A DNA stretch of 64,000 nucleotides from Hamadaea tsunoensis DSM 44101 (GTDB lineage: Bacteria; Actinomycetota; Actinomycetes; Mycobacteriales; Micromonosporaceae). Under the pieces are notes generated by a model. It was not told the DNA's origin and did no database searches. It saw nothing but the letters and a program-made list of their open reading frames with translations. Location: assembly GCF_000428945.1 (NCBI RefSeq), contig NZ_KE386822.1, positions 124,001 through 188,000 on the forward strand. The letters are read 5' to 3'. A program made the translations under genes and the position numbers. Positions 21,599 through 51,441 of the stretch are shown piece after piece (position 1 is the stretch's first letter; each line of letters begins with the position of its first letter).

Positions 21599-21868
21599 TG
21601 TCCGATATGGGCGATGTCTCGCCGACCGGTGGACTGATCGTCGACGGTCCGGAGCGCGTTGATGGTGATCGCCGATGATCGCGTCGAAGCTCTTGATCAT
21701 GCAGTCGCGACAAAGGCCTGCGTGCGGGGGTGAAGCCGTGATCGGACGACGGTGATGGATGCTTCGCCCTACTCAGCTGGCAGTGGAGGCCCCCCAGGGC
21801 CGGAACGGTCTCCCGCGGGAGGAGCGGAGGTGAGATCGACGAACCCGGGACATGAAAATGATCTTAAA
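21599..21868. repeat. Composite intergenic repeat R1 (short form)
   Basis: Contains half of the delimiter motif (TGTCCGATAT at 21599-21608), a palindromic stretch with GATCGTCGACGG and GATCATGCA, an inverted delimiter part (CAGTCGCGACAAA, 21702-21714), and module E (21741-21850). Module E shares its sequence with 28711-28826, and in inverse orientation with 50520-50635 and 61352-61447. It ends with GATCTTAAAGATC at 21860-21872. It fills most of the 459-base gap before the response regulator gene. Confidence 0.8.
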
Positions 21869-21901
21869 GATCTTGACAGTGGGCGTGCCATCCTGGGGAG
21901 C

Positions 21902-22561
21902 ATGCGCTTGCTGGTGGTGGAGGACGAGACGCGGATGGCCGCGGCGTTGCGGCGTGGCCTGGAGGCCGAGGGTTTCGTGGTCGATCTCGCGGCGACCGGG
22001 AAGCAGGGCCTGGACGCCGCCCGGTTCGGTGAGTACGACGCGGCGATCGTGGACGTGATGCTGCCGGGCCTGTCGGGCTACCAGGTGGTGAGCACCTTGC
22101 GGGACGAGGGGAAGTGGCTGCCGATCCTCATGCTGTCGGCCAAGGACGGCGAGCACGATCAGGCGGACGGGCTCGACTGCGGCGCCGACGACTACCTGAC
22201 CAAGCCGTTCTCCTACGTCGTGCTGCTGGCCCGGTTGCGTGCGCTGCTGCGGCGCGGTACGCCGGAGCGGCCGCCGATCCTGAGTGCCGGGCCGCTGGCG
22301 CTCGATCCCGCCGCGCGCCGCGTCACCCGCGACGGGGCCGAGGTCGCCCTCACTTCTCGCGAGTTCGCGCTGCTGGAGTACCTGATGCGGCATGCCGCGC
22401 GGGTGGTGTCCAAGACCGAGCTGCTCGACCACGTCTTCGACGCGGGCGAGGACACCGCGGCCAACCTGGTCGAGGTCTACGTCGGCTACCTGCGGCGCAA
22501 GCTCGGCACGGACGCGGTCGAGACCGTGCGCGGGGCCGGCTACCGGCTGGGCACGGCGTGA
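21902..22561 (+). CDS. Two-component response regulator, OmpR/PhoB type
   Basis: A 219-residue regulator. The receiver domain (1-115) has acidic residues E7 and D8, phosphoacceptor D51 in VDVMLPG, and Lys in TKPFSY. The C-terminal winged helix has TSREFALLEYLMR and VEVYVGYLRRKL with the RGAGYRL ending. Start is ATG 21902 with GGGGAG close before it; the longer open frame is repeat R1 and is rejected. It overlaps the histidine kinase start (GTGA) and is divergent from an ABC exporter operon, which is its likely target. Confidence 0.9.
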   Translation: MRLLVVEDETRMAAALRRGLEAEGFVVDLAATGKQGLDAARFGEYDAAIVDVMLPGLSGYQVVSTLRDEGKWLPILMLSAKDGEHDQADGLDCGADDYLTKPFSYVVLLARLRALLRRGTPERPPILSAGPLALDPAARRVTRDGAEVALTSREFALLEYLMRHAARVVSKTELLDHVFDAGEDTAANLVEVYVGYLRRKLGTDAVETVRGAGYRLGTA

Positions 22562-23928
22562 GGCGCCTGGGCACCTGGTGGGGGCGGCTCACGCTGCGCG
22601 GCCGACTGATGATCATCGGGGTCGGCGGGCTCACCGTCGGCTTCACGCTCGGCACCGTCGCGCTCACCGCGATCCTCGCGGTCACCCTCGGCCACAGCGT
22701 CGACGACCAGGCGCGTACGACCGCGCGCGACGTCGCCGACCTGGTGGACGCGGGGTCCCTCGCGCAGCCGGTTCCCGTTGCCGGTCCGTCGATCGTCCAG
22801 GTCGTCGACGATCGGCAACGCGTACGCGCGTCCTCGCCGGCCGCCGACGGTCTCGTGTCCCTGCTGCGGCCCCAGGAGATCGCGGCGGTACGCGCCGGGC
22901 AGACCCTCACGATCGACGGGGACCGGGCGACCGTGCACGGGCTGCTGCACGTGATCGGGGCGCCGGCCGGGACGTCGGACGATCCGCTGACGGTGGTCGT
23001 GGCGCTGCCGGTGGACCAGGCGCTCAAGAGCGTGAGCCTGCTCCGGTCGATCCTGTTCGTCGTGTACCCGGTGCTGGTCGGCGGGCTGTCGCTGCTGGCC
23101 TGGCGGGTCGTCGGGATCGCGCTGCGGCCGGTCGAGGATCTGCGCGCCGGTGCCGAGCGGATCGCGGAGGGCGGTCACGCCGAGCGGCTGCCCGTCCCGG
23201 ACGGCGCCGACGAGGTGCACAGGCTGGCGGTCACCCTCAACCACATGCTCGACCGGCAGGAGGCGGCCCGGCAGCGGCAGCGCGAGTTCGTCGCCGACGC
23301 CGCCCACGAACTGCGCAGCCCGATCGCCAACCTGCGGGTGCAGCTGGAGGTGGCCGAGCACGCGGGCGTACCGGTGCCGGCGCCGGAGCTGCTGGCCGAC
23401 GTCGAACGGCTGACCCGGCTCACCGACGACCTGCTTCTCCTGGCGCGCAACGAGTCCGCCCCGGCTCGACTGTCCGTTGTGGAGGTTCACGGGCTGCTGG
23501 CGGAGGTGGCCGGCCGCTACAGTGCCGCTCGCGTACCCGTCGTCGCTCCGGCTGCGGGCTCGGCTGCCGCGGCGGCCGTCGTCCGGGGCGATCCGGTGGC
23601 GCTCGACCGGCTGCTCGCCAACCTCGTCGACAACGCCGTCCGGTACGCGGCCACGGCCGTGACCCTGTCGGCCCGCGTCCTGCCCGGCGCCGTCGAGATC
23701 GTGGTGGCCGACGACGGTCCGGGCGTACCGGCGGCGGACCGGGAGCGGGTGTTCGAGCGGTTCACCCGGCTCGACGACGCCCGCAGCCGGGACGAGGGCG
23801 GCACCGGTCTCGGCCTCGCGATCGTCCGCGAGATCGCCCGCCGCCATCACGGGGACGTGACGTTGGCGGCCAACGACCCCGGCGTACGCGCGATCGTCAC
23901 GCTGCCGCTCGGCGGCCGCTCAGCCTGA
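22558..23928 (+). CDS. Sensor histidine kinase
   Basis: A 456-residue membrane kinase. A first membrane span near 18-42 (MIIGVGGLTVGF) and a second near 160-185 flank an extracytoplasmic sensor loop. HAMP, dimerisation and ATPase domains follow. The H box is FVADAAHELRSPIANL with His250, the N box is LLANLVDNAVRYA, and G boxes are DDGPGVP and GGTGLGLAIV. GTG 22558 overlaps the stop of the response regulator. The 3' end overlaps 32 bases with the convergent DUF2306 gene. Confidence 0.9.
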   Translation: MRRLGTWWGRLTLRGRLMIIGVGGLTVGFTLGTVALTAILAVTLGHSVDDQARTTARDVADLVDAGSLAQPVPVAGPSIVQVVDDRQRVRASSPAADGLVSLLRPQEIAAVRAGQTLTIDGDRATVHGLLHVIGAPAGTSDDPLTVVVALPVDQALKSVSLLRSILFVVYPVLVGGLSLLAWRVVGIALRPVEDLRAGAERIAEGGHAERLPVPDGADEVHRLAVTLNHMLDRQEAARQRQREFVADAAHELRSPIANLRVQLEVAEHAGVPVPAPELLADVERLTRLTDDLLLLARNESAPARLSVVEVHGLLAEVAGRYSAARVPVVAPAAGSAAAAAVVRGDPVALDRLLANLVDNAVRYAATAVTLSARVLPGAVEIVVADDGPGVPAADRERVFERFTRLDDARSRDEGGTGLGLAIVREIARRHHGDVTLAANDPGVRAIVTLPLGGRSA

Positions 23929-24361
23929 TGATCGCGAGGGCGAGGCCGACGCAGGCCAGGGCGCCCAGCGTCAGCGGGACCGGGTTGTGGACGATCCACT
24001 GCGGGATCTGGCGCACCGGGACGACGACGGCCCCGACGAAGGCGCCGAGCAGGCCGAAGTAGGACCCGGTCATGAAGCGCCGGTGATGCTTCACCCGCCC
24101 GGTACGCGCCGCCCACAGGCCGATCGTCAGGGTCACGAAGGTGAACACCGACAGCCCGTGGATCCAGCTGAAGTGGCCTGGCCGCAGGGCCTGGATGAAG
24201 AACGACGTGATGATCGTGAGGTACATGGCGACGACCCAGACGCGCCCGATCCGGCGGTGCCGCTGATCGCCCTTCGGCCGGCGGAGCAGGTTGTACGCCC
24301 CCAGCACCAGTGAGACGGTCGCGGCCGAGGCGTGCACTCCGATAACAACGTTATTGGCCAT
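23897..24361 (-). CDS. DUF2306-type membrane protein
   Basis: A 154-residue integral membrane protein with four hydrophobic segments. The R-R-I-G-R-V-W and H-F-S-W-I-H-G-L-S segments and the H-H-R-R-F-M-T-G-S-Y-F stretch are those of predicted DUF2306 proteins. Start at ATG 24361 (MANNVVIGVHASAA); a TATAAC box a few bases upstream suggests a leaderless or near-leaderless message. It is divergent from a TetR gene that shares the twin operator, so it is the likely regulated target. Function unknown. Confidence 0.75.
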   Translation of the reverse strand: MANNVVIGVHASAATVSLVLGAYNLLRRPKGDQRHRRIGRVWVVAMYLTIITSFFIQALRPGHFSWIHGLSVFTFVTLTIGLWAARTGRVKHHRRFMTGSYFGLLGAFVGAVVVPVRQIPQWIVHNPVPLTLGALACVGLALAIIRLSGRRAAA

Positions 24362-24372
24362 AACACTGTTAT
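24342..24372. promoter_or_regulatory. Twin TetR-type operators between DUF2306 and TetR genes
   Basis: ATAACAACGTTAT (24342-24354) and ATAACACTGTTAT (24360-24372) are two ATAAC-N3-GTTAT palindromes with centres 18 bp apart. The left one covers the first codons of the DUF2306 gene. The right one overlaps a TATAGT -10 box (24370-24375) for the TetR gene, whose ATG at 24383 would be the transcript start. Binding there would block both genes. Confidence 0.75.
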
Positions 24373-24382
24373 AGTCCTCGTC

Positions 24383-24967
24383 ATGGCATCGGTCAAGGGA
24401 GATCTGATCGACCGGCTCGTGGACGAGGGCGCGCGGCTGCTCGTCGCCGAGGGGCTCGGCGGGCTCTCGCTGCGCAAGGTCGCGGCGGCCGCCGGGGTGT
24501 CGACGATGCCCGTCTACACGCTCTTCGGCGACAAGCGCGGACTGCTGGCGGCCATGCACCGGGAGGCGTTCCGCCGGCTCGGCGCGGCCCTCGCCGCCGC
24601 CGGCCCCGCCGACGATCCGCTGCAGCACCTGGGTTTGCTGGGATTCGCGTACCGGCAGTCCGCTTTGGACGGGCCGCACCTGTACGCGCTCATGTTCGGC
24701 CAGGTGTTCGCCGAGCTGCCGGCCGACGAGGACGGCCGGGCGGCTGCCGATGCGGCGTACCTGCCCCTGGTGGACGGCGTACGCGCGGCCCAGACGGCGG
24801 GGATCCTGGCCGAGGGGGACCCGGAGCCGGTCGCGCTGCACCTGTGGGCGGTGGCGCACGGGATGGTGAGCCTGGAGATCAACGGACATCTTCCGGCGCT
24901 CGGCGACCCCGCGGACATGTACGCGATCGCCCTCAACAACGCGATCCAGCCCTTCCTCCGCATGTGA
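24383..24967 (+). CDS. TetR/AcrR family regulator
   Basis: A 194-residue repressor. The N-terminal helix-turn-helix is LSLRKVAAAAGVSTMPVYTLFGDKRGLL (residues about 30-58). A TetR C-terminal ligand domain follows (with the WAVAHGMVSLEI segment). Start ATG 24383, likely leaderless. It diverges from the DUF2306 gene over a twin-palindrome operator and is probably autoregulated. Ligand unknown. Confidence 0.87.
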   Translation: MASVKGDLIDRLVDEGARLLVAEGLGGLSLRKVAAAAGVSTMPVYTLFGDKRGLLAAMHREAFRRLGAALAAAGPADDPLQHLGLLGFAYRQSALDGPHLYALMFGQVFAELPADEDGRAAADAAYLPLVDGVRAAQTAGILAEGDPEPVALHLWAVAHGMVSLEINGHLPALGDPADMYAIALNNAIQPFLRM

Positions 24968-25006
24968 CCCCGGCCTGCCCGGCTGGTGTGCCGGGCTGCC
25001 CGGGCG

Positions 25007-25032
25007 TTGACAATCCTTTTCGGTCATAGAAC
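25007..25032 (+). promoter_or_regulatory. Candidate promoter of the amidase-lysozyme pair
   Basis: TTGACA at 25007-25012 and a TAGAAC word at 25027-25032, in an AT-rich stretch just after a GC hairpin. The spacing of 14 is short for a typical -35/-10 pair, so the assignment is tentative. Confidence 0.35.
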
Positions 25033-25088
25033 GATGCTTGTGAATTCTTCACTGGTTCCATGCTTCGTGCTGTACCGATGGAGGTGCG

Positions 25089-25742
25089 ATGATCTCTCTG
25101 AGCCGACGGCGGCTGCTCGCCGGAACCGGGACGCTCGCGGGCGGGCTGCTGCTCGGCGGCACCCCCGGCCGGGCGTCCGCGGCCGTGACCCCGCCCCGCG
25201 TCTACACCCGCGCCGAATGGAGCGCCCGGCCGCCGTCCAGCCCGGTGACCGTGCTCGACAGCAAGCCCGACCACATCGTCGTGCACCACACGGCCAGCGG
25301 GAACACCACGGACTACTCGCTCGCGCAGGCGGGCCGGCTGTCCCACTGGATCCAGGACCTGCACATGGACACCAACGGCTGGAGCGACTCCGGCCAGCAG
25401 CTGACCATCAGCCGCGGCGGCTACGTCATGGAGGGCCGCGACCGCAGCCTGGAGACGGTCGACGCCGGCAAGCTCGTCGTCGGCGCGCAGACGGCCAACC
25501 AGAACAGCCACACGATCGGCATCGAGAACGAGGGCATCTACGTCTCGCAGGACACCACGACGATGCTCTTCGACTCGCTGGTGCAGACGTGCGCGTGGCT
25601 GTGCGTCGCGTACTCGCTCGATCCGCGGCAGGCCATCGTCGGGCACCGGGACTACGTCACCACCACCCAGTGCCCGGGCGACGTGCTCTACGCCCGGCTG
25701 CCCGAACTGCGTACGCGGGTCGCTGCGGTGCTGGGGGCCTGA
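25089..25742 (+). CDS. Secreted N-acetylmuramoyl-L-alanine amidase (amidase_2/PGRP)
   Basis: A 217-residue protein with a twin-arginine signal (LSRRRLL...GGLLLGG) and an amidase_2 domain. Zinc ligands are visible in VVHHTA (first His pair), and in VGHRDYVTTTQCPGD (second His and the Cys). The enzyme would cut the bond between muramic acid and the stem peptide. GGAGG before ATG 25089. The next gene, a GH25-like muramidase, starts one base after the stop, so the pair would be made together to attack glycan and peptide links of the same wall. Confidence 0.87.
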   Translation: MISLSRRRLLAGTGTLAGGLLLGGTPGRASAAVTPPRVYTRAEWSARPPSSPVTVLDSKPDHIVVHHTASGNTTDYSLAQAGRLSHWIQDLHMDTNGWSDSGQQLTISRGGYVMEGRDRSLETVDAGKLVVGAQTANQNSHTIGIENEGIYVSQDTTTMLFDSLVQTCAWLCVAYSLDPRQAIVGHRDYVTTTQCPGDVLYARLPELRTRVAAVLGA

Positions 25743-25743
25743 C

Positions 25744-26538
25744 ATGGGACGCCGTATCGCGCTGCTGCTCATCGTGGTGGGTGTCCTGGTCGCCCCCGCG
25801 TCCTCGGCGGTCTCGTCCGAGCTCTCCGGCGAGGTCACCGCCGCTGTTCCGGCCGCTGCCGTCCCGCTTGCCGCCGCCGCCCCGCTCGCCGCGTCCGTCG
25901 GCGGTGTCGAGGCCGGGGCGTTCGCGGGCACCGTCACCTGGACAACCGTGCACAACGCCGGCGTCCAGTACGCGTACATCAAGGCGACCGAAGGAGCGTC
26001 CACGAAGGACACGAGCTTCGGCTCGAACTATCCGAACGCGTACTACGCGGGTCTGATCCGGGGCGCGTTGCACGTGGCGCGACCGAACCAGTCGAGCGGG
26101 ACCGCCCAGGCGGACTTCCTGGCGGGCAACGGCGGCGCCTGGTCGGCGGACGGCCAGACCCTGCCGGCGGCCGTGGACCTGGAGCCGAACCCGATCTCCG
26201 GCGGCTACTGCTACGGGCTCGGTACGAGCGCGATGGTCTCCTGGATCACGGCCTTCGTGAACGAGTACCACGCCCGGACGACGCGCTGGCCGGTCATCCA
26301 GACCACGACGTCGTTCTGGAAGCTCTGCACGGGCAACTCGACGGCCTTCGGCGGCAGGAGCCCGCTCGCGATCATCCACTGGGACACCGCCGCCGGTACG
26401 CTTCCCGCCGGCTGGAGCGTCTACACCTTCTGGCTGTCGACGGACTGCCAGCCGACCGCGGGCATGACCGGCTGCCCGGAGGCGTCGGTGTTCAACGGCG
26501 CCCAGAGTCGCTTGGTGGCCTTGGCCAACAACACCTGA
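25744..26538 (+). CDS. GH25-type lysozyme homologue with altered catalytic motif
   Basis: A 264-residue secreted protein: signal peptide (about 1-35), then a GH25 (N,O-diacetylmuramidase) fold. Family landmarks present are AYIKATEGAS near 77, IRGALHVARPN, VDLEPNP (equivalent of the DxE active-site pair), and TLPAGWSVYTFW. The first catalytic segment, normally a D in G-V-D-x-S-x-Y-Q-G, reads GVEAGAFAG, so that Asp is Glu, and the usual D-x-N before FNG is missing. Activity is therefore doubtful; it may be a binding or inhibitor-like relative. Forms an operon with the amidase. Confidence 0.75.
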   Translation: MGRRIALLLIVVGVLVAPASSAVSSELSGEVTAAVPAAAVPLAAAAPLAASVGGVEAGAFAGTVTWTTVHNAGVQYAYIKATEGASTKDTSFGSNYPNAYYAGLIRGALHVARPNQSSGTAQADFLAGNGGAWSADGQTLPAAVDLEPNPISGGYCYGLGTSAMVSWITAFVNEYHARTTRWPVIQTTTSFWKLCTGNSTAFGGRSPLAIIHWDTAAGTLPAGWSVYTFWLSTDCQPTAGMTGCPEASVFNGAQSRLVALANNT

Positions 26539-26562
26539 GCACCCTTCCGGCGCTATCGTGAG

Positions 26563-26605
26563 ACCGCTCCCGGCGACGTCCGATGTGGACGGCGCCGGGA
26601 GCGGT
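26563..26605 (+). terminator. Bidirectional hairpin terminator
   Basis: ACCGCTCCCGGCG and CGCCGGGAGCGGT pair over 13 positions. An inner CGTCC/GGACG pair continues the stem. It separates the plus-strand lysozyme-like gene from the minus-strand gene at 26609, four bases away. Confidence 0.85.
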
Positions 26606-26608
26606 GGA

Positions 26609-26869
26609 TCAGCTTACGGGGTGACCTCCGTCGCCCTGCACGACGACGTCCATCTTCCCGTCCTCGTCCAGGTCGACCATCGTGATGTCGGGCCGCCCGT
26701 CCCCATCGGTGTCGATCTGGAACAGGTCCGCCTTGCCGTTGCCGTCCGTGTCGATCGCCCAGACGTCGGGCGTACCGTCGCCGGTGGTGTCCAAGGCGAC
26801 GATCTCGTTACGCTCGTCGCCGCGGGTCTGGACTTCGCCGCCCTCGGCGGGGGTGCCGTCGTTCGTCAT
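26609..26869 (-). CDS. Small protein with calcium-binding-like DxDxDG repeats
   Basis: 86 residues. After about 20 residues, four repeats of roughly 12 each read D-x-x-G-D-G-x-x-D-x-x-x-x-D, for example DTTGDGTPDVW, DTDGNGKADLF, DTDGDGRPDIT, DLDEDGKMDVV. This resembles thrombospondin type 3 or EF-hand-like calcium loops. There is no signal peptide. I do not recognise a function. It is followed by its own terminator and preceded by a MpaB-like gene on the same strand with a 30-base gap. Confidence 0.65.
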   Translation of the reverse strand: MTNDGTPAEGGEVQTRGDERNEIVALDTTGDGTPDVWAIDTDGNGKADLFQIDTDGDGRPDITMVDLDEDGKMDVVVQGDGGHPVS

Positions 26870-26899
26870 ACCGCCGTACTTCCCCCGTTCGCCCAGGAA

Positions 26900-27739
26900 T
26901 CATGCCTGCTCCTCCGCGGGGCCGGCCGTCGCCTTGGCCGCCCGGGCCATCGCGCTGCGGAAGATCGGCCCCTCGAACGCCCGCCGCGGCAGGACGCGCA
27001 GCGCGTGCCGGACGGCGTACGCGGAGGCGGTCGCGGACACGTCCGTCGTCGGCAGGCCGGGGAGGCTGTACATCCGCCGCGCCCACCGGGGCAGCAGGCC
27101 GACACCGAGCGCGCTGAAACCCCACCAGGCAACGCGTACGGGGGTGATGCCCAGGCCGTAGGGGAGCGGCGGGGACACCAGGAACCTCATCACCTCCCGG
27201 GCCTCAGGCGTCGAGTGCAGTTCCGGCAGGTGCCGTTCGTAGAAGGCGGCCACCTCGGCGGCAGTTCCGGGTACCGTGGCCGGATCGAGGCCGACCAGCT
27301 CCGCCGCCCGGCGCTGCTCGGCGTAATAGCGGTCGACGTCGGCGTCGGACAGTTCCAGCCCGGCGCGGCGGGCCGTCGTCACGAACGAGTCCACCTCGGT
27401 GACGTGCACCCAGCGCAGCAGGTCGGGCTCGTCCAGCCGGAACTCCTCGCCGGTGTCGACATCGCGGGCGGTCATGGCCGCGTGGACCGCGCGTACGCGC
27501 CGCCCCGCCGCCTCGGCCTGCGCCGTCGTCCCGTACACGACGGTCGCGACGTAGTTGATCGTGCGCTGGAGGCGTCCCCAGGGATCGTTCTTGAAGTCGG
27601 AGTTCTGCGTCACACCGGCGATCGCGCGCGGGTGCAGGGCCTGCAGCAGCAGGGCGCGCGGCGCGGAGAGCAACAGGACCGGCTCGGCGTGCACCCGCCA
27701 GGTCACCGTGCCGGGCCCGAACAGACCGAGATCGCTCAT
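26900..27739 (-). CDS. Oxygenase MpaB/DUF2236 family protein
   Basis: A 279-residue protein with a short hydrophobic segment near the N-terminus (WRVHAEPVLLLSAPRALLLQALHP) and the R-T-I-N-Y-V and WVHVTEVDSF (H and D) stretches typical of DUF2236. In Mycobacterium and other actinobacteria these are haem- or iron-dependent oxygenase-like proteins, related to latex-clearing-type enzymes. Start ATG 27739 (MSDLGLFG) fits the family; the longer reading goes over the divergent promoter. Product role unknown. Confidence 0.75.
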   Translation of the reverse strand: MSDLGLFGPGTVTWRVHAEPVLLLSAPRALLLQALHPRAIAGVTQNSDFKNDPWGRLQRTINYVATVVYGTTAQAEAAGRRVRAVHAAMTARDVDTGEEFRLDEPDLLRWVHVTEVDSFVTTARRAGLELSDADVDRYYAEQRRAAELVGLDPATVPGTAAEVAAFYERHLPELHSTPEAREVMRFLVSPPLPYGLGITPVRVAWWGFSALGVGLLPRWARRMYSLPGLPTTDVSATASAYAVRHALRVLPRRAFEGPIFRSAMARAAKATAGPAEEQA

Positions 27740-27806
27740 GCATCGAGGGTGGCACGCTCGGCGCAAACCGGCCACACCCAATCTGACCTGCTTATACGCT
27801 GATGAC

Positions 27807-28109
27807 ATGTCGGTCATCATGATCATGCGAGTGCCGGGCGAAGCCGAATCGTTCGAGCGGTACGCCGCCGAGAACGCCGCCGAGATGCGCGGCGTCGCCG
27901 ACCGGGCGAAAGGCTACGGAGCCGTCCGCCACTTCTTCGGCAGCGGCCGGGGCGAGGTCGTGGTGATCGACGAATGGCCGGACGAGGAGAGCTTCCGCCG
28001 CTTTTTCGCGGAGGTGAAGGAACTGCCGGACATCATGCAGCGGGCGGGGGCGCAGGGGGCGCCGGAGCTGTCCTTCCTCCGCAAACTCGACATGCCCGGC
28101 GAGTTCTGA
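27807..28109 (+). CDS. Small antibiotic-biosynthesis-monooxygenase-like (ABM) protein
   Basis: 100 residues with one ferredoxin-like alpha/beta domain: MSVIMIMRVPGEAESF, GEVVVIDEWPDEESF and RFFAEVKELPDIMQ. It lacks a distinct active site; the fold serves small oxygenases and unknown proteins. ATG 27807; TACGCT 7 bases upstream could be a -10, giving a leaderless mRNA. It is divergent from the MpaB-like gene. After it begins the composite repeat R2. Confidence 0.6.
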   Translation: MSVIMIMRVPGEAESFERYAAENAAEMRGVADRAKGYGAVRHFFGSGRGEVVVIDEWPDEESFRRFFAEVKELPDIMQRAGAQGAPELSFLRKLDMPGEF

Positions 28110-28127
28110 TCCCGGCAGTTTCTAGCT

Positions 28128-28830
28128 TTTGTCCCGACTATCCGATATGTGCGGTCGGTCGTCAGGCCTGACTGCCCGGTGATCGTTGACGGCTGCGGTG
28201 TGAAAACAGGCCCCCGATGCATGATCGTTGACGGTTCTGGAGCGCGTTGACCGGCTCCGGCTACACCTGACGCGTAAACGATCATGCAGATCGGCCCGGA
28301 TTGACACCTCAGCCGTAAATGATCAAGGAATCCGTGTCTCCAGCCCACATGACGGAAGATCGTTCTCGCGTCATGGGCTCCGGCCGAGGACGGGGCGGCG
28401 CGCCAGCCGCGAACGATCACCCACCAGTCGATCCATCCGATCGCCAAATCGGACAGTCGCGACAAAGGCCGGGGTAAAGAGCCGCGTCACCCATAGCAGG
28501 TCGCCGATGATCGCGCCGAACTCCTTGATCATGTAACCCTGTTCCGGCAAGAAAACGCTCTCCCGCCGATATGGCGTTACATGATCAAGGCGCAGCCACC
28601 CCCATCGCCGGAATAGCGCTACATGATCATGGCATCGGGCACAGGACCCGCCGGCAACCGATGTTCATATCGGACAGTCGCGACAAAAGCCGGGGTGAAG
28701 GGGTGAACCAGCGACCGGACGACGGTGATGGATGCCTCGCCCCACTCAGCTGGCAGTGGAGGCCCCCCAGGGCCGGAACGGTCTCCCGCGGGAGGAGCGG
28801 AGGTGAGATCGACGAACCCGGGACCTGAAT
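28128..28830. repeat. Composite intergenic repeat R2 (long form)
   Basis: Order left to right: delimiter TTGTC...GATAT (28128-28148), a large palindrome P (28180-28325, two arms of about 53 bases with TGATCGTTGACGG and GATCATGCA words), reversed delimiter (28446-28466), module B with the hairpin CCTTGATCATGTAAC / GTTACATGATCAAGG (28523-28590), another reversed delimiter (28667-28687), and module E (28711-28826). This fills nearly the whole gap between two convergent genes. It matches region 50498-51441 in opposite orientation, and 28447-28826 is almost identical to it. Confidence 0.9.
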
Positions 28831-28857
28831 CTGATCGTGAATGAAAAGCTCTTGGAT

Positions 28858-29682
28858 TTACAGCTCCACGCCGAACTTGCGGAGGATGGCGCTGCCGGCC
28901 AGGGCTATCCCGGCGCCGATCGAGATCACGGCGAAGATGCCGGACAGGACCACGCGCTCGACCTTGCCGCCGACCTCGACCGCGATCGCGTTCGGTACGC
29001 CGAACATCCGCCACAGCCGCATCTGCTTGAACTTGAAGCCGGTCGGGATCGGCCAGAGGATCGGTACGCCGGCGCTGGTGATGATGTCGCCGAGCAGGTG
29101 CACGATGCAGCCGACGCCGACGGCGAAGCCTATGAGCGGATAGCCGGCCCCGGCGTCGAGGTGCAGGAACGTGTAGTACGCGGCACCGGCGGCGAGCAGG
29201 GTGGTGATGAGCCAGCCGGCCCGCTTCGCCCAGTGCTCGAAGACGCCGCGGACGGCGAGCCCGATCATCAGGAACAGGATCGGCAGGACGGCCCACTTGC
29301 CGAAACGCGAGCACAGGAAGGTCGCGCCCCAGCCCATGAGCAGCGCGAACGGCAGCGTGTGGGTGAAGGTCCGGTGGCCGTAGTCGCGTTTGGGATCGTG
29401 GCTGAGCCGGGTCGCGGTGTAGATGCCGAGCGACAGCTTCTCGATGATCTCGGAGATGAACATCGAGACCGGGCCGAAGGTGTGCGCGACGGTGGCGCCG
29501 CCCTGGTTGGTCGTCACCTTGCCGGACAGGTCCAGGTCGGGCAGGAGCGCGCCGCCCGCGCAGACGGCGGTGCCGAGCGCGATGTAGAGCGGCGACTGCT
29601 GCTTGTCGAAGAACTGCTCCATCACCCAGGATCCGCCAAGCCATACCGCGGCACCGGAAAGCGCGTGCGAACGCCCCATCAT
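28858..29682 (-). CDS. YdjM-like metal-dependent membrane hydrolase (LexA-binding-inner-membrane family)
   Basis: A 274-residue polytopic membrane protein. The N-terminal MMGRSHALSGAAVWL carries the conserved G-R-x-H motif; PDLDLSG and YGHRTFTHTLPF supply further metal-binding Asp and His residues, and HLLGDIITSAGVP another. These are the landmarks of the YdjM/DUF457 family. Start at ATG 29682 with GAGGAA in good position; the longer ORF is not supported. Substrate unknown. Confidence 0.78.
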   Translation of the reverse strand: MMGRSHALSGAAVWLGGSWVMEQFFDKQQSPLYIALGTAVCAGGALLPDLDLSGKVTTNQGGATVAHTFGPVSMFISEIIEKLSLGIYTATRLSHDPKRDYGHRTFTHTLPFALLMGWGATFLCSRFGKWAVLPILFLMIGLAVRGVFEHWAKRAGWLITTLLAAGAAYYTFLHLDAGAGYPLIGFAVGVGCIVHLLGDIITSAGVPILWPIPTGFKFKQMRLWRMFGVPNAIAVEVGGKVERVVLSGIFAVISIGAGIALAGSAILRKFGVEL

Positions 29683-29763
29683 GACGGCTGTTCCTCCCCA
29701 AAGGATCGTGGGCGCCCAAAGGGAGCCGCGCACACTTTGCCAGAACATGTGTCGGAAGACAAT

Positions 29764-29794
29764 CGGCCGGTCCTACACGCGATAGGACCGGCCG
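29764..29794 (-). terminator. Hairpin terminator after trpEG
   Basis: CGGCCGGTCCTA / TAGGACCGGCCG, 12 bp perfect, 7-base loop, 14 bases past the trpEG stop on the reverse strand. Confidence 0.8.
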
Positions 29795-29807
29795 GTGCGC
29801 CTTCTCT

Positions 29808-31770: not shown

Positions 31771-31777
31771 GGGAGAC

Positions 31778-33450: not shown

Positions 33451-33540
33451 AACCCAAGATCCCGCTCGGATCAGGGAAATCACCCGAATCTTGGACCATG
33501 ATTCGGGTGGTAACCGTGATCCCAGCGGGATCTTGGGGTT
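33451..33540. repeat. Palindromic repeat family A, copy 2
   Basis: A 90-base palindrome between two convergent genes. Outer arms are AACCCAAGATCCCGCT and AGCGGGATCTTGGGGTT; the inner core is AATCACCCGAATCTTGGACC with its complement. It is the longest copy of the family (others at 21520 and 60251) and could act as a terminator of both genes. Confidence 0.85.
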
Positions 33541-43318: not shown

Positions 43319-43404
43319 GCGTACATGCTGCCGCCTCGGCTGCCATTCCGCCAGCCCGTGACCGTTGACAACGGACCATCCACGCTGTTAGACCTGACCT
43401 AACT

Positions 43405-43424
43405 GTGACAAGGGTCGATGTCAC
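43405..43424 (+). promoter_or_regulatory. Operator-like palindrome upstream of the mannanase gene
   Basis: GTGACA and TGTCAC separated by 8 bases, 52 bases before ATG 43476. It sits in the divergent region with the TPR gene and fits a repressor site. Confidence 0.4.
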
Positions 43425-43475
43425 GCGCTGGTTCGCGCAGGTGGACCGGTGTCCTTCGTCGCCCCGGAGGCTGTC

Positions 43476-45290: not shown

Positions 45291-45321
45291 TCCGGGCGCG
45301 GACAGAGCGTGATGGACGTGG

Positions 45322-45389
45322 CGATCTTGCGCGAATGTCCGGGCATTTCGGGCAGTCAGGACGAAATTCGAGACATTCGCGCAAGATCG
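45322..45389. repeat. Palindromic repeat family C, copy 1
   Basis: 68 bases with perfect 18-base arms CGATCTTGCGCGAATGTC / GACATTCGCGCAAGATCG. The second copy, also 68 bases, is at 51471-51538. It sits between convergent genes and could act as a bidirectional terminator. Confidence 0.85.
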
Positions 45390-45413
45390 TCGGACATGGC
45401 CGCGGACAGTCGG

Positions 45414-45665
45414 TCAGTGGCGGAAGTGGACGAAGATGCGGCCGAAGTTCTTGGAGTCCTTCTCCACCCGGTGGTACAGCGCCTTGATCTCCTTCTGATC
45501 GAGGAACCGCAGCACCTTCTTCTTCAGCTGTCCCGACCCCTTGCCAGGGATGATCTCGATGAGCGGCGCCTTCTTCGCGACGGCCTCGCGCACGATGGCG
45601 TTGAGCGCGCGATCGATCTCGCCGCCCTTGTTGTAGATGTCGTGGAGGTCCAGTACCAGCTTCAT
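45414..45665 (-). CDS. Smr domain protein
   Basis: 83 residues. Smr (MutS2-type) fold: LDLHDIYNKGGEIDRALNAIVREA, then IEIIPGKGSGQLKKKVLRFL. The LDxH and G-K-G-S-G motifs are complete, as in small stand-alone Smr proteins, which are nucleases or RNA-binding. ATG 45665. It shares a strand with the DUF3105 gene 21 bases upstream, probably one operon. Confidence 0.87.
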   Translation of the reverse strand: MKLVLDLHDIYNKGGEIDRALNAIVREAVAKKAPLIEIIPGKGSGQLKKKVLRFLDQKEIKALYHRVEKDSKNFGRIFVHFRH

Positions 45666-45686
45666 CGTCGTCCAGGATAACGGTTG

Positions 45687-46457
45687 TCAGGACTGGTGAT
45701 CGAGGTCCGCCCCGGTGGTGGTGTTGCCGCCCGAGCAGACCGCGCCGGTCTCCTGCGACGCGTTGACGCGCAGGTCGTTGATGAACTGGTCGATCCGCGA
45801 GTCGCCGGCGTTGTCGACCTTGAGCTGCCAGCCCCAGGCCTGCAGCGAGATGGCCGAGCCCTGGTCCGGATACGGGCTGAGCAGCGTGTACGGGACGCCC
45901 TTGACCCGGTCTTCGAGGAGTTTGACCTGGTCGGCCGGGAGGCTGGGGTCGTAGGTGATCCAGATGGCGCCGTGTTCGAGGCTGTGTACGGCGTGCTCGT
46001 TCGCGATCGGCTGGGTGTAGACGTCGCCCATGCAGTTCTGCCAGATCGGGTTGTGGTTGCCGCCGATCGGGGGCGTCGTGTCGTAGGTGACCTTGCCCTG
46101 GACGTGGGTGTTGCCGAACTTCTCGGTGTGCCGGTCGACGATGCCGGAGATCGTCTGCGCCTTGGCGACGTAGTCGCCGGTGACGGTCGGGGTGGCGGCG
46201 GTGTTCTTGCCGGACTGCGCGTTGACGAACCAGACGGCGCCGGCGATGGCCACGAGGACGGCGACCGCGACGGTGATCAGCGTGAAGTTCCACGGCCGGT
46301 CGGCGTGGGCGGCCGCCTTGACCGCCTTCTGCGCCGCGGCCCGCTGCTGCGTTCCGCCGGCCGGCCGCTGGGGCTGCGTACCGGAGGCCGGCTTCGGGCC
46401 GCGCGGCTTCGTGCCGGATCCGCCGCCGGGGCGGGCGCCTGATTTCCTCGTCGCCAT
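45687..46457 (-). CDS. DUF3105 membrane-anchored protein
   Basis: 256 residues. Cytoplasmic Lys/Pro-rich N-terminus, one membrane span (about 60-80), then an extracytoplasmic DUF3105 domain with PIGGNHNPIWQNC, and the E-H-A-V-H-S-L-E-H-G-A-I-W segment carrying three His. Start ATG 46457. Function not known; histidines suggest metal binding. Confidence 0.83.
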   Translation of the reverse strand: MATRKSGARPGGGSGTKPRGPKPASGTQPQRPAGGTQQRAAAQKAVKAAAHADRPWNFTLITVAVAVLVAIAGAVWFVNAQSGKNTAATPTVTGDYVAKAQTISGIVDRHTEKFGNTHVQGKVTYDTTPPIGGNHNPIWQNCMGDVYTQPIANEHAVHSLEHGAIWITYDPSLPADQVKLLEDRVKGVPYTLLSPYPDQGSAISLQAWGWQLKVDNAGDSRIDQFINDLRVNASQETGAVCSGGNTTTGADLDHQS

Positions 46458-46513
46458 TGGCCCGACGGTAGCCAGGTTTCCTGTGAGGCCGCTGTACCTG
46501 GGCCGAGGGGGTG

Positions 46514-46596
46514 CTGAACCGTTTAAGCTGCTGGCGGCCCCGACGGGAAGATATGGGCTTCGATAGGGGTGGAGATTTGCCTTAACCGGTTCTTCG
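46514..46596 (+). promoter_or_regulatory. LacI-type operator words before the LacI gene
   Basis: CTGAACCGTTTAAG near 46514-46528 and TTAACCGGTT near 46582-46591 are both AACC-GGTT-type half-site pairs, the usual LacI-family operator core. They surround the divergent promoters of the DUF3105 and LacI genes and support autoregulation. Confidence 0.5.
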
Positions 46597-46611
46597 CGGC
46601 ACGATGTGTCC

Positions 46612-47694
46612 ATGCAGAATCGGGGCGCTGCTCCCGACGGTACCCGGGTCGTCCCGGCCGCGCGGGGCACGGGGGTCGGCGGCCGCAAGACCATCGGCGA
46701 CATCGCCCGCGCCGCCGGAGTCTCCAAGGGCGCCGTCTCCTACGCCCTCAACGGCAAACCCGGCGTCTCCGACGTCACCCGCCAGCGTATCCTCGCCATC
46801 GCCGAGGAGCTCGGGTGGCACCCGAGCAGCGCCGCCCGGGCCCTGTCGGACGGGCGTACGGGAGTGCTGGGGCTGATCGTCGACCGGCCGGCGCGCACCC
46901 TCGGCATCGAATCGTTCTTCATGCAGCTCATCTCCGGCATCGAGGCCACCCTCTCCGCCCGCGACGTCGGCCTGCTCCTGCAGGTCACCGACGACCAGCA
47001 GCGGGAGATGGCGGCGTACCGGCAGTGGTGGGCGCGGCAGCGGGTGGACGGCGTGATCCTCGTCGACCTGCGCGCCGACGATCCACGCGTACCGCTGCTG
47101 GAGGAGCTCGGCATGCCGTGCGTCGTGATCGGCGGGCCGGAGGGGCTCGGTACGCTGCCCGGCATCTGGAGCGACGACGGCGCCGCCATCACGTCCGTCG
47201 TCGAGTACCTGGCCGCGCTCGGCCACCGCCGCATCGCCCGCGTCGCCGGCCTGCCCAACCTCTACCACACCGCACTGCGCGACCGCGGCGTGGCGGCCGC
47301 CGCCGAGCGGCTCGGCCTCGACGAGGTCATCACGGTGTACGCGGACTACACCGGCGAGGAGGGCGCCCGGGCGACCAGGACGCTGCTGAGCCGCCGGCCC
47401 GCCCCGACGGCCGTGATCTACGACAACGACGTGATGGCCGTGGCCGGCGTCGCGGTCGCCCACGAGATGCGGGTGTCGATCCCGGCCGACCTGTCGGTCG
47501 TCGCGTGGGACGACTCGCCCCTGTGCCAGCTGGTGCATCCGCAGCTGTCGGCCGTGAACCGGGACATCGCGGCCTACGGCGCCCACGCGGCCCAGCGGCT
47601 GCTGGAGATCGTCGAGGGTACGCCGGCCGTCTCGGTCCAGGACCCGACGCCGCAACTGGTCCCGCGCGGCAGCACAGCCGCCCCCGGCCGCTGA
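46612..47694 (+). CDS. LacI family transcriptional regulator
   Basis: 360 residues. N-terminal LacI helix-turn-helix: TIGDIARAAGVSKGAVSYALNGKPGVSD, with hinge-helix SSAARALSDGRTG. Periplasmic-binding-type ligand domain to the end. Start at ATG 46612; a GTG six bases upstream is an alternative. No sugar transport gene is adjacent, so its targets are elsewhere or the upstream divergent gene. Its 3' end begins a tandem repeat (47692-47744). Confidence 0.88.
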   Translation: MQNRGAAPDGTRVVPAARGTGVGGRKTIGDIARAAGVSKGAVSYALNGKPGVSDVTRQRILAIAEELGWHPSSAARALSDGRTGVLGLIVDRPARTLGIESFFMQLISGIEATLSARDVGLLLQVTDDQQREMAAYRQWWARQRVDGVILVDLRADDPRVPLLEELGMPCVVIGGPEGLGTLPGIWSDDGAAITSVVEYLAALGHRRIARVAGLPNLYHTALRDRGVAAAAERLGLDEVITVYADYTGEEGARATRTLLSRRPAPTAVIYDNDVMAVAGVAVAHEMRVSIPADLSVVAWDDSPLCQLVHPQLSAVNRDIAAYGAHAAQRLLEIVEGTPAVSVQDPTPQLVPRGSTAAPGR

Positions 47695-47750
47695 GCCGCC
47701 CGGTCGCGCCCGACCGCTGAGCCGTCCCGTCGCTCGGCCGCTGAGCCGGA
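47692..47750 (+). repeat. Stop-codon tandem repeat after the LacI gene
   Basis: GACCGCTGAGCCG-type words recur three times (TGA at 47692, 47718 and 47742), 26 and 24 bases apart. The first is the LacI stop codon itself. Compare 55789, 57516 and 63529. Confidence 0.6.
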
Positions 47751-47800
47751 CGGAAGCCGAGCGCTCGGCCCGGGTGGACCGCTTGCGGCAGAATCCGCAC

Positions 47801-48535
47801 ATGGAGCCCGTGGAGATCCGTCGGCTGGACAGCGTCGATCGGCAGCTGGCGGGCGTACGCCTGCTGTGCGCCGTCTGGGGGACCGACAGCGCGGAGGACC
47901 TGGTCGGGCCCTCGATGATGCGGGCGCTGGACTTCGCCGGGAACTACGTCTACGGCGCGTACCTGGGTGGGGAGCTGGTCGGGGTCAGCGTCGCGTTCCT
48001 CGGCGGGGATCACCTGCACTCCCACATCACGGGGCTGCTGCCCTCGGCCCGGGCGGCCGGGCTGGGTCCGGCGTTGAAGCGGCACCAGCGCGACTGGGCG
48101 CTGGAGCGGGGGATCACCCGCGTCGAGTGGACCTTCGATCCGCTGGTGGCCCGCAACGCGTACTTCAACCTGCAGAAGCTAGGCGCGGTGGCGGTGGCGT
48201 ACCTGCCGGACTTCTACGGGGCCATGGCGGACGGGCTGAACGACGGGGACGCCACCGACCGGCTGCTGGCCCGTTGGGACCTGACGCGGACGGGACCGGT
48301 GCAGCCGGTCGCCGTGACGGCCGGCGACCGGGCCGTCGAGGTGCCCCGGGACGTGGAATCGCTGCGGCGCAACGACCCTGCCGCCGCGGCCGGCTGGCGG
48401 CAGCGCGTACGCGACCGGTTCCAGGAGGCGCTGGCGGACGGCTTCCGGATCGCGGGCATCACCCGCGACAGCGTCTACGTCCTGCGTCCGGCCGGCCGGG
48501 GCCCGGCCGCGGACCGGTGCGAGGATGAGGCATGA
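47801..48535 (+). CDS. GNAT superfamily acyltransferase (COG3375 type)
   Basis: 244 residues. GNAT core: DLVGPSMMRALDFAGNYVYGAYLGGELVGVSVAFLG, HSHITGLLPSARAAGLGPALKRHQRDWA (acyl-CoA pyrophosphate loop), and LVARNAYFNLQKLGAVAVAYLPDFYG. This larger GNAT type accompanies N-acylamino acid racemases, and the stop of this gene overlaps the racemase ATG (ATGA). By analogy with Geobacillus-type systems it would N-succinylate a D-amino acid; the substrate is inferred. Confidence 0.8.
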   Translation: MEPVEIRRLDSVDRQLAGVRLLCAVWGTDSAEDLVGPSMMRALDFAGNYVYGAYLGGELVGVSVAFLGGDHLHSHITGLLPSARAAGLGPALKRHQRDWALERGITRVEWTFDPLVARNAYFNLQKLGAVAVAYLPDFYGAMADGLNDGDATDRLLARWDLTRTGPVQPVAVTAGDRAVEVPRDVESLRRNDPAAAAGWRQRVRDRFQEALADGFRIAGITRDSVYVLRPAGRGPAADRCEDEA

Positions 48536-49638
48536 ACATCAGCGGCGTGGAACTGCGCCGGGTGCGGATGCCCCTCGTGGCGCCGTTCCGGACCTCCTTC
48601 GGCACCGAGTACGAGCGCGACGTCCTGCTGGTACGCGTCGCGACCGGCGACGGCTACGGCTGGGGCGAGTGCGTCGCGATGTCCGAGCCGGTGTACTCCT
48701 CCGAATACGTGTCCGGCGCGGCGGAGGTGATCGCCAAGTTCCTCGTGCCGCTGCTGGGCGGGCCGGAGCCGCGTACGCCGCACGACGTGGAACAGCGGTT
48801 CGCCAAGGTCAAGGGACACCCGATGGCCAAGGCCGCGCTGCACACCGCGATCCTCGACGCGTACCTGCGCGAGACCGGTACGCCGCTGGCCGAGTTCCTC
48901 GGCGGTGTCACCCCCACGGTCCCGACCGGCGTCTCCGTCGGCATCCAGGACTCCCTTCCGGAGCTGCTGTCCGCCGTCGAGGGCTACCTGGCCGAGGGCT
49001 ACGCCCGGATCAAGCTGAAGATCGAGCCCGGCTGGGACATCGAGCCCGTACGCGCCGTCCGCGAACGGTTCGGCGACATCCTGCTGCAGGTGGACGCGAA
49101 CTGCGCGTACGAGCTGCGCGACGCGCGCCACCTCGCCGAACTCGACCGGTTCGACCTGCTGCTCATCGAACAGCCGCTGGCCGAGGACGACCTGCGCGGC
49201 CACGCGGCCCTGGCCCGCCAGCTGCGTACGCCGATGTGCCTCGACGAGTCCATCGTGTCCGCCCGGGCGGCGGCGGACGCGATCGCGATCGGCGCGGCGG
49301 CGATCGTCAACATCAAACCCGGCCGGGTCGGCGGCTACCTGGAAGCCCGTCGCATCCACGACGTGTGCGCCGCGCACGGCGTACCCGTGTGGATCGGCGG
49401 CATGCTGGAGACGGGCGTCGGGCGGGCCGCGAACCTGGCGCTCGCGGCGCTGCCGAACTTCACGCTGCCCGGGGACGTCTCGGCCTCGCGGCGCTACTAC
49501 GAGCAGGACCTGACCGCGCCCTTCGAACTGGTGGACGGCCTGATGACCGTGCCGGCCGGCGCGGGGATCGGCGTGGACCCGGAGCCGGAGGTCCTGCGCG
49601 AGCTGACGACGGAGGTCACGCGGCTCACGGTCGGCTGA
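48532..49638 (+). CDS. N-acylamino acid racemase / o-succinylbenzoate synthase (MenC-type enolase superfamily)
   Basis: 368 residues. Muconate-lactonizing subgroup of the enolase superfamily. Catalytic Lys pair in IKLKIEP, metal ligands in VDANCAY, IEQP and CLDES, and the other catalytic Lys in VNIKPGRVGG. The sequence is close to NAAAR/OSBS proteins such as those of Amycolatopsis and Geobacillus. Coupled to a GNAT gene, so racemisation of N-succinylamino acids is more likely than menaquinone synthesis, though both activities often coexist. An M20 peptidase gene is 3 kb downstream and could supply the hydrolytic step. Confidence 0.82.
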   Translation: MNISGVELRRVRMPLVAPFRTSFGTEYERDVLLVRVATGDGYGWGECVAMSEPVYSSEYVSGAAEVIAKFLVPLLGGPEPRTPHDVEQRFAKVKGHPMAKAALHTAILDAYLRETGTPLAEFLGGVTPTVPTGVSVGIQDSLPELLSAVEGYLAEGYARIKLKIEPGWDIEPVRAVRERFGDILLQVDANCAYELRDARHLAELDRFDLLLIEQPLAEDDLRGHAALARQLRTPMCLDESIVSARAAADAIAIGAAAIVNIKPGRVGGYLEARRIHDVCAAHGVPVWIGGMLETGVGRAANLALAALPNFTLPGDVSASRRYYEQDLTAPFELVDGLMTVPAGAGIGVDPEPEVLRELTTEVTRLTVG

Positions 49639-49666
49639 GGTAGCCTAGCGGCGACTTCGACGGCGG

Positions 49667-50497
49667 ATGGGGTACCCGGTGACCTGGCAGGCGGGCGACG
49701 AGCAGCCGCAATGGCGATTCGCGCCGATGCATCCCTCATGGGTCCGCTGGCTGCCCTGCGCGGTGGCGAGCCTGCGCGTGGTCCCCGCCGAGGATCCCAC
49801 CGGCGACGCGTTTCCCCGCCGCTGGTACGACCACCCTGCGCTGGACCTGCCCTGGGACGATCCTGTGTGGTGCGACCCCGGCCCGGTCGAGGAGTGGATC
49901 GAGCAGTCGCGCGGCGCGAGCTCGGAGGCCGACGCCCGCGCCCACTACGCCCGCGTGATCCAGGCCCGGACGCGACGCATCGACATCTTCACCGAATGCT
50001 GCGCCCGCTCCGACGTCCCGGTCCCGCTCAACCTCCGCCAGCTCGTCGACTGCCTGGTCGGCCTCGGCGTCCTGTGGGAGTTCGAGGGCGCCGACGGCAC
50101 CCCGTGGATCACCGCCAACTTCGCCGCGAACCCGCTCGACCTGCTGGCGCTCACCCCGCAGGAAGCGGCCGACGAGGCGTCCGCGCAGATCCTCGAACGC
50201 GGCGTCCTGGCCGGGATCGGCCTGCGCCGCCTCGCCGAACAGCAGGCGCCCGAAGGCGGCGGCCAGACCGTGTGGCTGACGCTGCGCCAGCTCGGCGACG
50301 AGATCGACCTCACGCCCGCGGCGGCCCGGCTCGCGCTCGGGCTGATCGCGTCCGAGGAACACTGGATCTCCGTGGACCCGCATGTGGACCTGCAGAGCGT
50401 CAAACTCGACCAGCCGTTCGTCGTGAAAGCGGATCACGACCGGTTGGCGCTGGTGTACGACATGGACGAGCTGATCGCGCCCGAGCATCTGATCTGA
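49667..50497 (+). CDS. Uncharacterised actinobacterial protein
   Basis: 276 residues, cytosolic, Trp-rich N-terminus (MGYPVTWQAG, WVRWLPCAVASL), no membrane segment. A helical C-terminus contains a winged-helix-like stretch (LRQLGDEIDLTPAAARLALGLI) near 205-230. I do not recognise the family with certainty; it may be one of the DUF6042-type proteins. Start ATG 49667 lacks a good ribosome site; a later ATG (49727) is possible. The gene is followed at once by composite repeat R3. Confidence 0.5.
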   Translation: MGYPVTWQAGDEQPQWRFAPMHPSWVRWLPCAVASLRVVPAEDPTGDAFPRRWYDHPALDLPWDDPVWCDPGPVEEWIEQSRGASSEADARAHYARVIQARTRRIDIFTECCARSDVPVPLNLRQLVDCLVGLGVLWEFEGADGTPWITANFAANPLDLLALTPQEAADEASAQILERGVLAGIGLRRLAEQQAPEGGGQTVWLTLRQLGDEIDLTPAAARLALGLIASEEHWISVDPHVDLQSVKLDQPFVVKADHDRLALVYDMDELIAPEHLI

Positions 50498-51441
50498 CGA
50501 TCTTCAAGATCTTTTGTTCCCGGGTTCGTCGATCTCACCTCCGCTCCTCGCGCGGGAGACCGTTCCGGCCCTGGGGGGCCTCCACTGCCAGGTGAGTGGG
50601 GCGAAGCATCCATCACCGTCGTCCGGTCGCTGGTTCACCCCTTCAACCCGGACTTTGTCGCGACTGTCCGATATGAACAGCGGTTGCCGGCGGGTCCTGT
50701 GCCCGATGCCATGATCATGTAGCGCCATTCCGGCGATGGGGGTGGCTGCGCCTTGATCATGTAACGCCACATCGGCGGGAGAGCGTTTTCTTGCCGGAAT
50801 AGGGTTACATGATCAAGGAGTTCGGCGCGATCATCGGCGACCCGCTATGGGTGACGCGGCTCTTTACCCCGGCCTTTGTCGCGACTGTCCGATATGGTCG
50901 AGTGAACGTCGGTCGGCAGGTGTTCCGCAGCCGCTGAGAGGTCACCTCGCACCCAGCCCCCTTGATGCGGTGCCCGCCAGGCGGGACCGATCATCCAGCC
51001 GCGAGACGAGACGCCGATCCCGTGATCGTCGGCGGTGGGGATGTGGTTTTCGGGCCGGCTCCCTCGATCGTTTGCGGCTGAGATGTCGGTAGGGGCCGGG
51101 TTTCTCCATCAGCAGCGCCTTGGATCTTGGGCGGCGGTCGGGTTTCTACAGCTCAGCCGCTGTGGATCACCCCGAGCCGCTTCGCTGCCGCCCGTCGTCC
51201 GCGATGTGGGAAGGATCTTCCGCCCAGTGGATCGCCATCGCCGTTTGACCGATCGTTGACGGCTGGGGTGTCATTTCCGGCTCGCCTTGCATGATCGTTT
51301 ACGCGTCAGGTGCCACCAGGGGCGTCCAGGTGCTCCAGAACCGTAAATGATCATGCAGTGGGTGGCTGTTTTTACACCAGAGCCGCAAACGATCAACCCA
51401 TCGGTCGGCGGCGCGCGCCCATATCGGACAGTCGCGACAAA
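50498..51441. repeat. Composite intergenic repeat R3 (long form, inverse of R2)
   Basis: Order: GATCTTCAAGATC (50499-50511), module E (50520-50635, reverse), delimiter TTGTCGCGACTGTCCGATAT (50655-50674), module B with hairpin 50751-50818 (CCTTGATCATGTAAC arms), second delimiter (50876-50895), a 350-base GATC-rich stretch, palindrome P (51251-51395), and a reversed delimiter (51421-51440). Bases 50516-50903 are the reverse complement of 28447-28826 with only about a dozen differences. No gene is present; short open frames here are rejected. The rest, to 51700, holds one family C palindrome. Confidence 0.9.

Follow-up and report, generated by a model that had tools for sequence, protein, structure and literature searches.

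We analysed a 64,000-nucleotide (nt) window of the Hamadaea tsunoensis DSM 44101 genome (positions 124001-188000 of contig NZ_KE386822.1, here C11; host assembly of 9.48 Mb in 68 contigs, 71% GC), in which three intergenic composites, R1 to R3, are built from repeat modules (P, B, C and E) set apart by the delimiter TTTGTCGCGACTGTCCGATATG. A sequence-only reading had described a modular composite repeat over 21599-51441; this range comprises three separate composites and 24 gene-like open reading frames (ORFs), not a single unit (Table 1). All six delimiters of that reading were found at the positions it gave, against none expected in 100 shuffles; the copies at 28129 and 28446 carry two mismatches and one, respectively, and the remaining four are exact. 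Its two fragments, at 21599 and 21702, are delimiter halves of 11 and 13 nt. The assignment of P, B and E to R2 and of E, B and P, inverted, to R3 also held, both being backed by a common block of 380 nt at 97% identity from E to the inner delimiter (28444-28823 and 50518-50897), but R3 is not the full inverse of R2, as a C palindrome sits in the place of the right E arm. R1, taken earlier for a short P with E, does carry the E arm; its 'short P' is a palindrome of a separate family (I), and a remnant of B was found too. An E-only copy, R4, had also been placed in the range; the sole E-only copy found in the window is a relic outside it.

Table 1 Composites, truncated delimiters and related palindromes in the window.
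Feature	Position	Strand	Remark
I palindrome (separate family; earlier 'short P')	21521..21601	.	abuts truncated delimiter
Truncated delimiter, right part, TGTCCGATATG, 11 nt	21599..21609	+	
R1 decayed remnants	21610..21701	.	B remnant 21669-21701, 88% to R2; preceding P remnant by eye only
Truncated delimiter, left part, 13 nt	21702..21714	-	
R1 E arm	21716..21863	+	91% to R2 E arm
R2 delimiter, P side	28128..28149	+	2 mismatches
R2 module P, shortened	28150..28444	+	p-end hairpin present, v-end half mostly lost
R2 delimiter, P/B boundary	28445..28466	-	
R2 module B	28467..28665	.	GATCATGTAACGC palindromes
R2 delimiter, B/E boundary	28666..28687	-	
R2 module E, outer arm with GC hairpin	28688..28841	+	
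Solo C palindrome amid gene-like ORFs	45321..45395	.	
R3 module E, left arm	50518..50653	-	
R3 delimiter, E/B boundary	50654..50675	+	
R3 module B	50676..50874	.	
R3 delimiter, B/P boundary	50875..50896	+	
R3 module P, 523 nt, p end rightmost	50897..51419	-	
R3 outer right delimiter	51420..51441	-	
C palindrome beyond R3 right delimiter	51468..51545	.	
E-only relic, 77.5%	61328..61464	-	

The delimiter is dispersed through the host genome and appears restricted to it. The pattern TTTGTCGCGAC[N][R]TCCGATATG found 242 genomic copies at up to two mismatches (118 forward, 124 reverse), 90 of them mismatch-free, and the reversed control pattern found none. A logo of 177 copies puts the conserved site nearer 28 bp, YYGGMC-TTTGTCGCGACTGTCCGA[T/C][A/T]TG, with near-random flanking linkers. 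No match was obtained in three congeners at up to one mismatch, nor in the remaining 353 family genomes searched (the three congeners among them) at up to two, and the exact delimiter was absent from viral contigs. Among 84,980 species the exact 22-mer matched once, in a proteobacterial bin (L059), in a scan that may omit records near the own genome; since the surrounding modules are absent and an open frame runs over the 22-mer, we took this match as chance. The modules are equally confined: the E pattern has 224 sites and the C arm pattern 393 in the own genome, with at most one of either in any of 40 relatives. An ordinary regulatory site was rejected as an identity for the delimiter, which accompanies the modules and was not found in relatives. 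A truncation point shared between delimiters was likewise rejected, there being only four left-half and four right-half cases, with three of the right halves outside composites. As right halves of 11-12 nt thus also turn up away from composites, three times in 1.46 Mb, an isolated half is weak evidence alone.

The spread of the family over the genome looks uneven. Contigs C2-C4 (each taken as at least 484 kb, judging by the apparent ordering of contigs by length) hold none of the 90 exact delimiters against 13.8 expected (P ~1e-6), and C4 holds at least three copies with one mismatch. Contigs C9, C12, C24, C55 and C56 terminate within composites, and the family seems to break assembly.

The anatomy was established from sixty stretches of ~20 kb around listed delimiters together with the window (1.26 Mb), which hold 186 delimiters at up to five mismatches and 142 at up to two; 180 lie within the 75 clusters analysed. 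Written as motif strings, these 75 composites usually follow the order E > (C >) P < (B <) (C <) E', in which C, B and C are each optional, and some lack P or one E. Segments between neighbouring delimiters (108) are bounded mainly by inward inverted copies (50) or direct copies (54). P is mostly 420-425 nt long (32 copies of 380-500 nt were aligned); repeats of one TGATCGTTTACGGCTGAGGTGT-like motif make up its two long, imperfect palindromes. B and C, also palindromic, are rooted on TGATCATGTAACGC and CGATCTTGCGCGAATG, respectively. E is ~150 bp long. Its outer end has CCCGGGACA and an AT-rich tail of GATCTTGA, and the stem of its hairpin varies by paired substitutions among the copies listed (75 of 81), given which E may be structured. 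In the tail, GATCTT is spaced from the end of E by a multiple of three in 77 of 96 cases and the frame is open in 53 of 93 copies; a coding reading would account for this phase, but a hexamer-like repeat could explain it as well. The outer ends of E (for example L126 ~11040) do show AT-rich hexamer-like GATCTTGA repeats of variable length. Across the 32 P copies, which have a mean identity of 0.74, likeness is 0.92 in the delimiters, a value biased upward because delimiters were picked by match, and 0.43 in the adjacent outer 22 nt.

The modules are not freely ordered. At the 80 delimiters with a recognisable P end inside, B adjoined P on the outside in nine cases, all of them at the v end and none at the p end (one of the nine, R2, is a marginal call at 8 versus 10 mismatches). 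C occurred at both ends (p 16, v 8; C versus B, Fisher p 0.0009), as did E (p 17, v 11), and 19 of the 80 delimiters had no recognised outer module. Where a delimiter separates C from B, C lay outside in four of four cases, with the order reversed within one L081 segment. Such order points to a single ancestral composite in which some modules are optional and speaks against free shuffling, and the earlier idea that building blocks assemble freely does not agree with B always at the v end, C outside B (L081 being the counter-example) and E usually outermost.

To locate the joint between modules, we examined 178 delimiters, 100 of which had both neighbours classified, at a threshold of p < 0.01. 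The bases at -12, -11, -9, -7, -6, -4 and -2 depend on the outer module, and no base from -12 to -1 depends on the inner one; bases 18-19, 22-28, 30, 33 and 34 vary with the inner module; and the core, 0-17, is nearly invariant except at base 6 (both neighbours) and base 7 (outer). Bases on the left thus mostly follow the outer module and those on the right the inner, which places the joint inside the core, the outcome that recombination between delimiters would give. The view that the delimiter marks a boundary between modules is therefore borne out, in that the dependence on neighbours switches within it.

The composites lie between genes. Using a home-made GC-frame ORF picker for gene calls, no gene-like ORF was found inside any of the 75 composites. 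Flanking genes were convergent at 29 of the 58 composites with both genes called, compared with 201 of 869 neighbouring pairs (p 2e-5), and divergent at 6 of 58 against 202 of 869 (p 0.02). Of the composite sides within 600 nt of a gene, 78 of 107 face a 3' end (p 2e-6). E was present on 16 of 29 sides facing a 5' end and 44 of 78 facing a 3' end (p 1.0), and an element serving the 3' ends of genes was rejected because the presence of E is independent of gene direction. The siting would fit tolerated insertion, an argument also made from siting for pneumococcal repeats (PMC3049150).

A known RNA family was rejected, as Rfam gave no match in the window at gathering score and R3 yielded only five sub-threshold microRNA (miRNA) hairpins. 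Proof of RNA hairpins in P by covariation was rejected too: two Watson-Crick types occur in only 2 of 37 predicted pairs on the forward strand and 4 of 60 on the reverse. G-T and A-C pairs in the forward hairpin of P numbered 39 and 29 (p 0.27); in the reverse fold they numbered 263 and 43, yet the fold itself selects G-T pairs. Oriented palindromes gave 207 and 135 for C and 36 and 54 for I, with no consistent strand.

We compared the whole of contig C11 (318,580 nt) with 400 kb of a congener (G001), in which the delimiter, B, C, P, W and F motifs were absent and the E and I motifs occurred once each at up to four mismatches. Eleven of the 37 motif clusters listed are flanked on both sides by aligned blocks, with under 2.6 kb separating the blocks in either genome; the other 26 have no such two-sided alignment. 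Two composites with alignable genes on both sides face short spacers in the congener: the blocks around C11:29296-30004 are 1108 nt apart in C11 and 202 nt in the congener, and those around C11:114331-114848 are 638 and 59 nt apart. The E relic of the window falls in a stretch (61316-63598) of 2281 nt against 9 nt. Corresponding distances were 116/27 and 1025/1065 nt for solo C palindromes and 221/152, 875/249, 178/85, 1136/1031 and 433/507 nt for I palindromes. Overall, nine of the 11 clusters are shorter in the congener (two by less than 180 nt in spacers above 1 kb) and two are longer. The aligned blocks are 65-89% identical, so exact junctions are unreadable and a target duplication may have escaped notice. 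On a larger scale, window 14210-28865 (~14.6 kb) is an island missing in G001 and in a further congener, G003, where its flanks lie ~450 and ~170 nt apart.

Other palindromes were recorded alongside the modules. The I family (~80 bp, GATCCCGTTTGGATCA arms) has 69 distinct 79-nt copies in 1.46 Mb and lies at 33452-33540, 21521-21601 and 60248-60327 in the window; it stands alone in 119 of 124 BLAST hits and mostly 5-65 nt past stop codons, which is terminator- or REP-like. A C palindrome at L123:9567-9908 encloses an F palindrome (GATCGTGTCGCGCGTATATGTCG), showing that palindromes nest in each other. The stretches L125:3044-4282 and L128:18762-20000, from contigs C36 and C43, share 1239 nt at 100% identity up to the stretch edge, either an assembly duplicate or a true duplication.

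Taken together, these composites probably form a non-autonomous, non-coding, lineage-specific intergenic mosaic family that spread in trans and whose B and C modules were gained or lost at the delimiter core. That the composites were not found in relatives or at the alignable sites of the congener suggests that a mobile process probably spread them. The fullest composite is E > C > P < B < C < E', with two inverted E arms of ~150 bp outermost around a central P core of ~420 bp, itself two long palindromes of a repeated GATC-rooted motif, and with optional palindromic B and C cassettes set apart by sites of 22-28 bp pointing inward. In the proposed mechanism, an enzyme supplied in trans would recognise the delimiter, perhaps also the palindromes, and would have placed copies of entire composites in the spacers that follow genes. 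Because direct delimiter copies flank both B and C, these could then be gained or lost precisely within the core by recombination there. The earlier proposal of a mobile or recombining noncoding family thus stands as far as the elements are dispersed, apparently non-coding, modular, restricted and probably spread; free assembly and a recombinase tied to the delimiter do not.

Several observations weigh against this interpretation. At R3 the inter-block distances of 1279 nt in C11 and 1101 nt in G001 leave no clean empty site, and R2 lies at the right edge of the 14.2-28.86 kb island, so that its left side is missing in two congeners. The module order has exceptions (L081, L101, L116 and L117), and outward delimiters bound 4 of the 108 segments. 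Within a composite, the left and right E arms are hardly more alike (0.78) than arms taken from different composites (0.76), a slight difference (p 0.04, 20 pairs). The split of the core is imperfect, with base 6 following both neighbours, 7 and 20 only the outer, and 18 and 22-25 both; correlation between neighbours could cause the outer-module dependence of bases 18, 20 and 22-25. Recent exchange was not enriched at delimiters: among 141 blocks at 95% identity or more, delimiters contained 6 of 269 breakpoints (8.1 expected), and 14 fell within 10 nt of a delimiter (15.6 expected). The 97% block of R2 and R3, which ends at the inner delimiter, is consequently no proof of exchange. No target-site duplication was recognised by eye in the 20 composites with both E arms. 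A search for the mobiliser found no Y1 (RAYT) transposase, PF01797 being unmatched in the genome but matched in 6 of the 14 named genomes used as a control. None of 13 integrase, 2 IS110 and 2 resolvase matches had a delimiter in the ~1.5 kb flank per side (less at contig ends). The earlier suggestion of a RAYT or recombinase acting on the delimiter was not upheld by these searches.

We regard it as unlikely, though to be taken seriously, that the composites are miniature inverted-repeat transposable elements (MITEs) or foldback elements, with the E arms and delimiter as terminal inverted repeats cut by the DDE transposase of an insertion sequence (IS) sharing those ends, and B and C inserted later. 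Inverted E arms do stand at both ends of 20 composites, with outer termini TGTCCCGGG...CCCGGGACA, many high-identity blocks stop ~150 nt beyond the outermost delimiter, and inward delimiters bound P, mostly 420-425 nt apart. Those same 20 composites, however, are the ones lacking a recognised target duplication, and no gene-like ORF lay between delimiters at the ~140 of 242 inspected for an IS with shared ends (contigs C62-C68 read N; DDE families were not searched). The delimiters on C52-C61 (20,000 of 20,921 bases of C52) belong to composites at the contig ends of C55 and C56.

Site-specific cassettes are quite improbable: delimiters would be att-like, and circular B and C would enter through a tyrosine recombinase, a serine recombinase or a phage integrase, in the way proposed for dRS3. 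The joint within a nearly invariant core and the 54 segments between direct site copies agree with this, and a half P (a p...P hairpin without delimiter) lies ~270 nt from an integrase match at C17:246693-247244 (L194), either a lead to the missing enzyme or a coincidence. The flanks of two other integrases hold a C arm and an I motif. Set against it are the preferred order and the position of B, the near absence of like neighbours (C beside C at 1 and B beside B at 0 of the 100 classified delimiters), and the 17 recombinase matches without a delimiter nearby.

Still less probable, in our view, is a sequence that serves the host, such as bidirectional terminators or binding sites for nucleoid or transcription proteins spread by gene conversion. 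The preference for convergent spacers and 3' ends and the conservation of delimiter and palindrome arms between near-random linkers would suit such a role, but E does not follow the genes pointing at its side and the alignable congener sites do without the sequence. REP- or BIME-type palindromes spread by a RAYT transposase are very improbable indeed and were disfavoured because no Y1 gene was found in the genome, even though palindromes, solo C and I included, lie downstream of genes.

The earlier reading could match the family to no known one, but the mosaic family favoured here, spread in trans, has counterparts in kind: it resembles neisserial intergenic mosaic elements (NIMEs) and pneumococcal BOX elements. 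To our knowledge, mosaic intergenic repeats with a shared delimiter have been described mainly in Neisseria, with phage integration into the delimiter as the suggested driver of rearrangement. In NIMEs, RS modules of 50-150 bp lie between 20-bp dRS3 copies, the arrays measure 200-2700 bp, and each genome has ~200 to 700 dRS3 (PMC9778887, PMC3898611). dRS3 is suggested as a recombination site, since a filamentous phage integrates there and phage integrase may recombine dRS3 copies (PMC3898611, PMC9778887). The likeness lies in short conserved delimiters between differing repeat modules, in intergenic arrays and in hundreds of delimiters per genome. The present family is nevertheless not a NIME, as its delimiter is not the dRS3 pattern ATTCCC(N8)GGGAAT. 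Further differences are that its palindromic modules are longer and come in a preferred order, the array is bounded by E arms, the host has 71% GC, no delimiter lies near the 17 recombinase matches and the exact delimiter is absent from viral contigs.

The BOX elements known from Streptococcus pneumoniae and S. suis join boxA to boxC through a variable number of boxB, span 67-637 bp and are reported to make target duplications (PMC3049150). They share with the present family a fixed module order with variable complement, inverted ends, a largely species-restricted range, over-representation between convergent genes and repeat families inserting into one another (PMC3049150). They differ in size, our composites measuring 0.4-1.3 kb between E arms, and in that a common delimiter between modules is not mentioned for BOX in the accessible part of PMC3049150, a comparison by description only.

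REP and BIME elements with RAYT are similar in having palindromes near gene 3' ends and different in the Y1 transposase, not found here. Composites in this family are also larger than BIMEs. MITEs and Correia elements are likewise non-coding with inverted ends and high copy number, whereas here each copy holds several delimiters, a target duplication was not recognised by eye and a parent IS was not found (DDE families not searched). Among the open-access titles listed by searches aimed at such a family, none describes it, most subscription journals lying outside that coverage. This family combines the delimiter plan of NIMEs with the ordered modules of BOX and is best read as working like either.

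The same plan, with 242 delimiters and no RAYT, in an unrelated high-GC bacterium suggests more than one origin for delimiter-joined mosaics, and the preferred module order together with a joint inside the core makes the mechanism testable across sister strains. A bolder possibility, to which we give little credence, is a cassette system for non-coding DNA, in which a resident recombinase would act at the 22-bp core to insert and remove palindromic cassettes at set places in hundreds of composites. If this were true, the genome would carry rearrangeable structured spacers without coding cargo.

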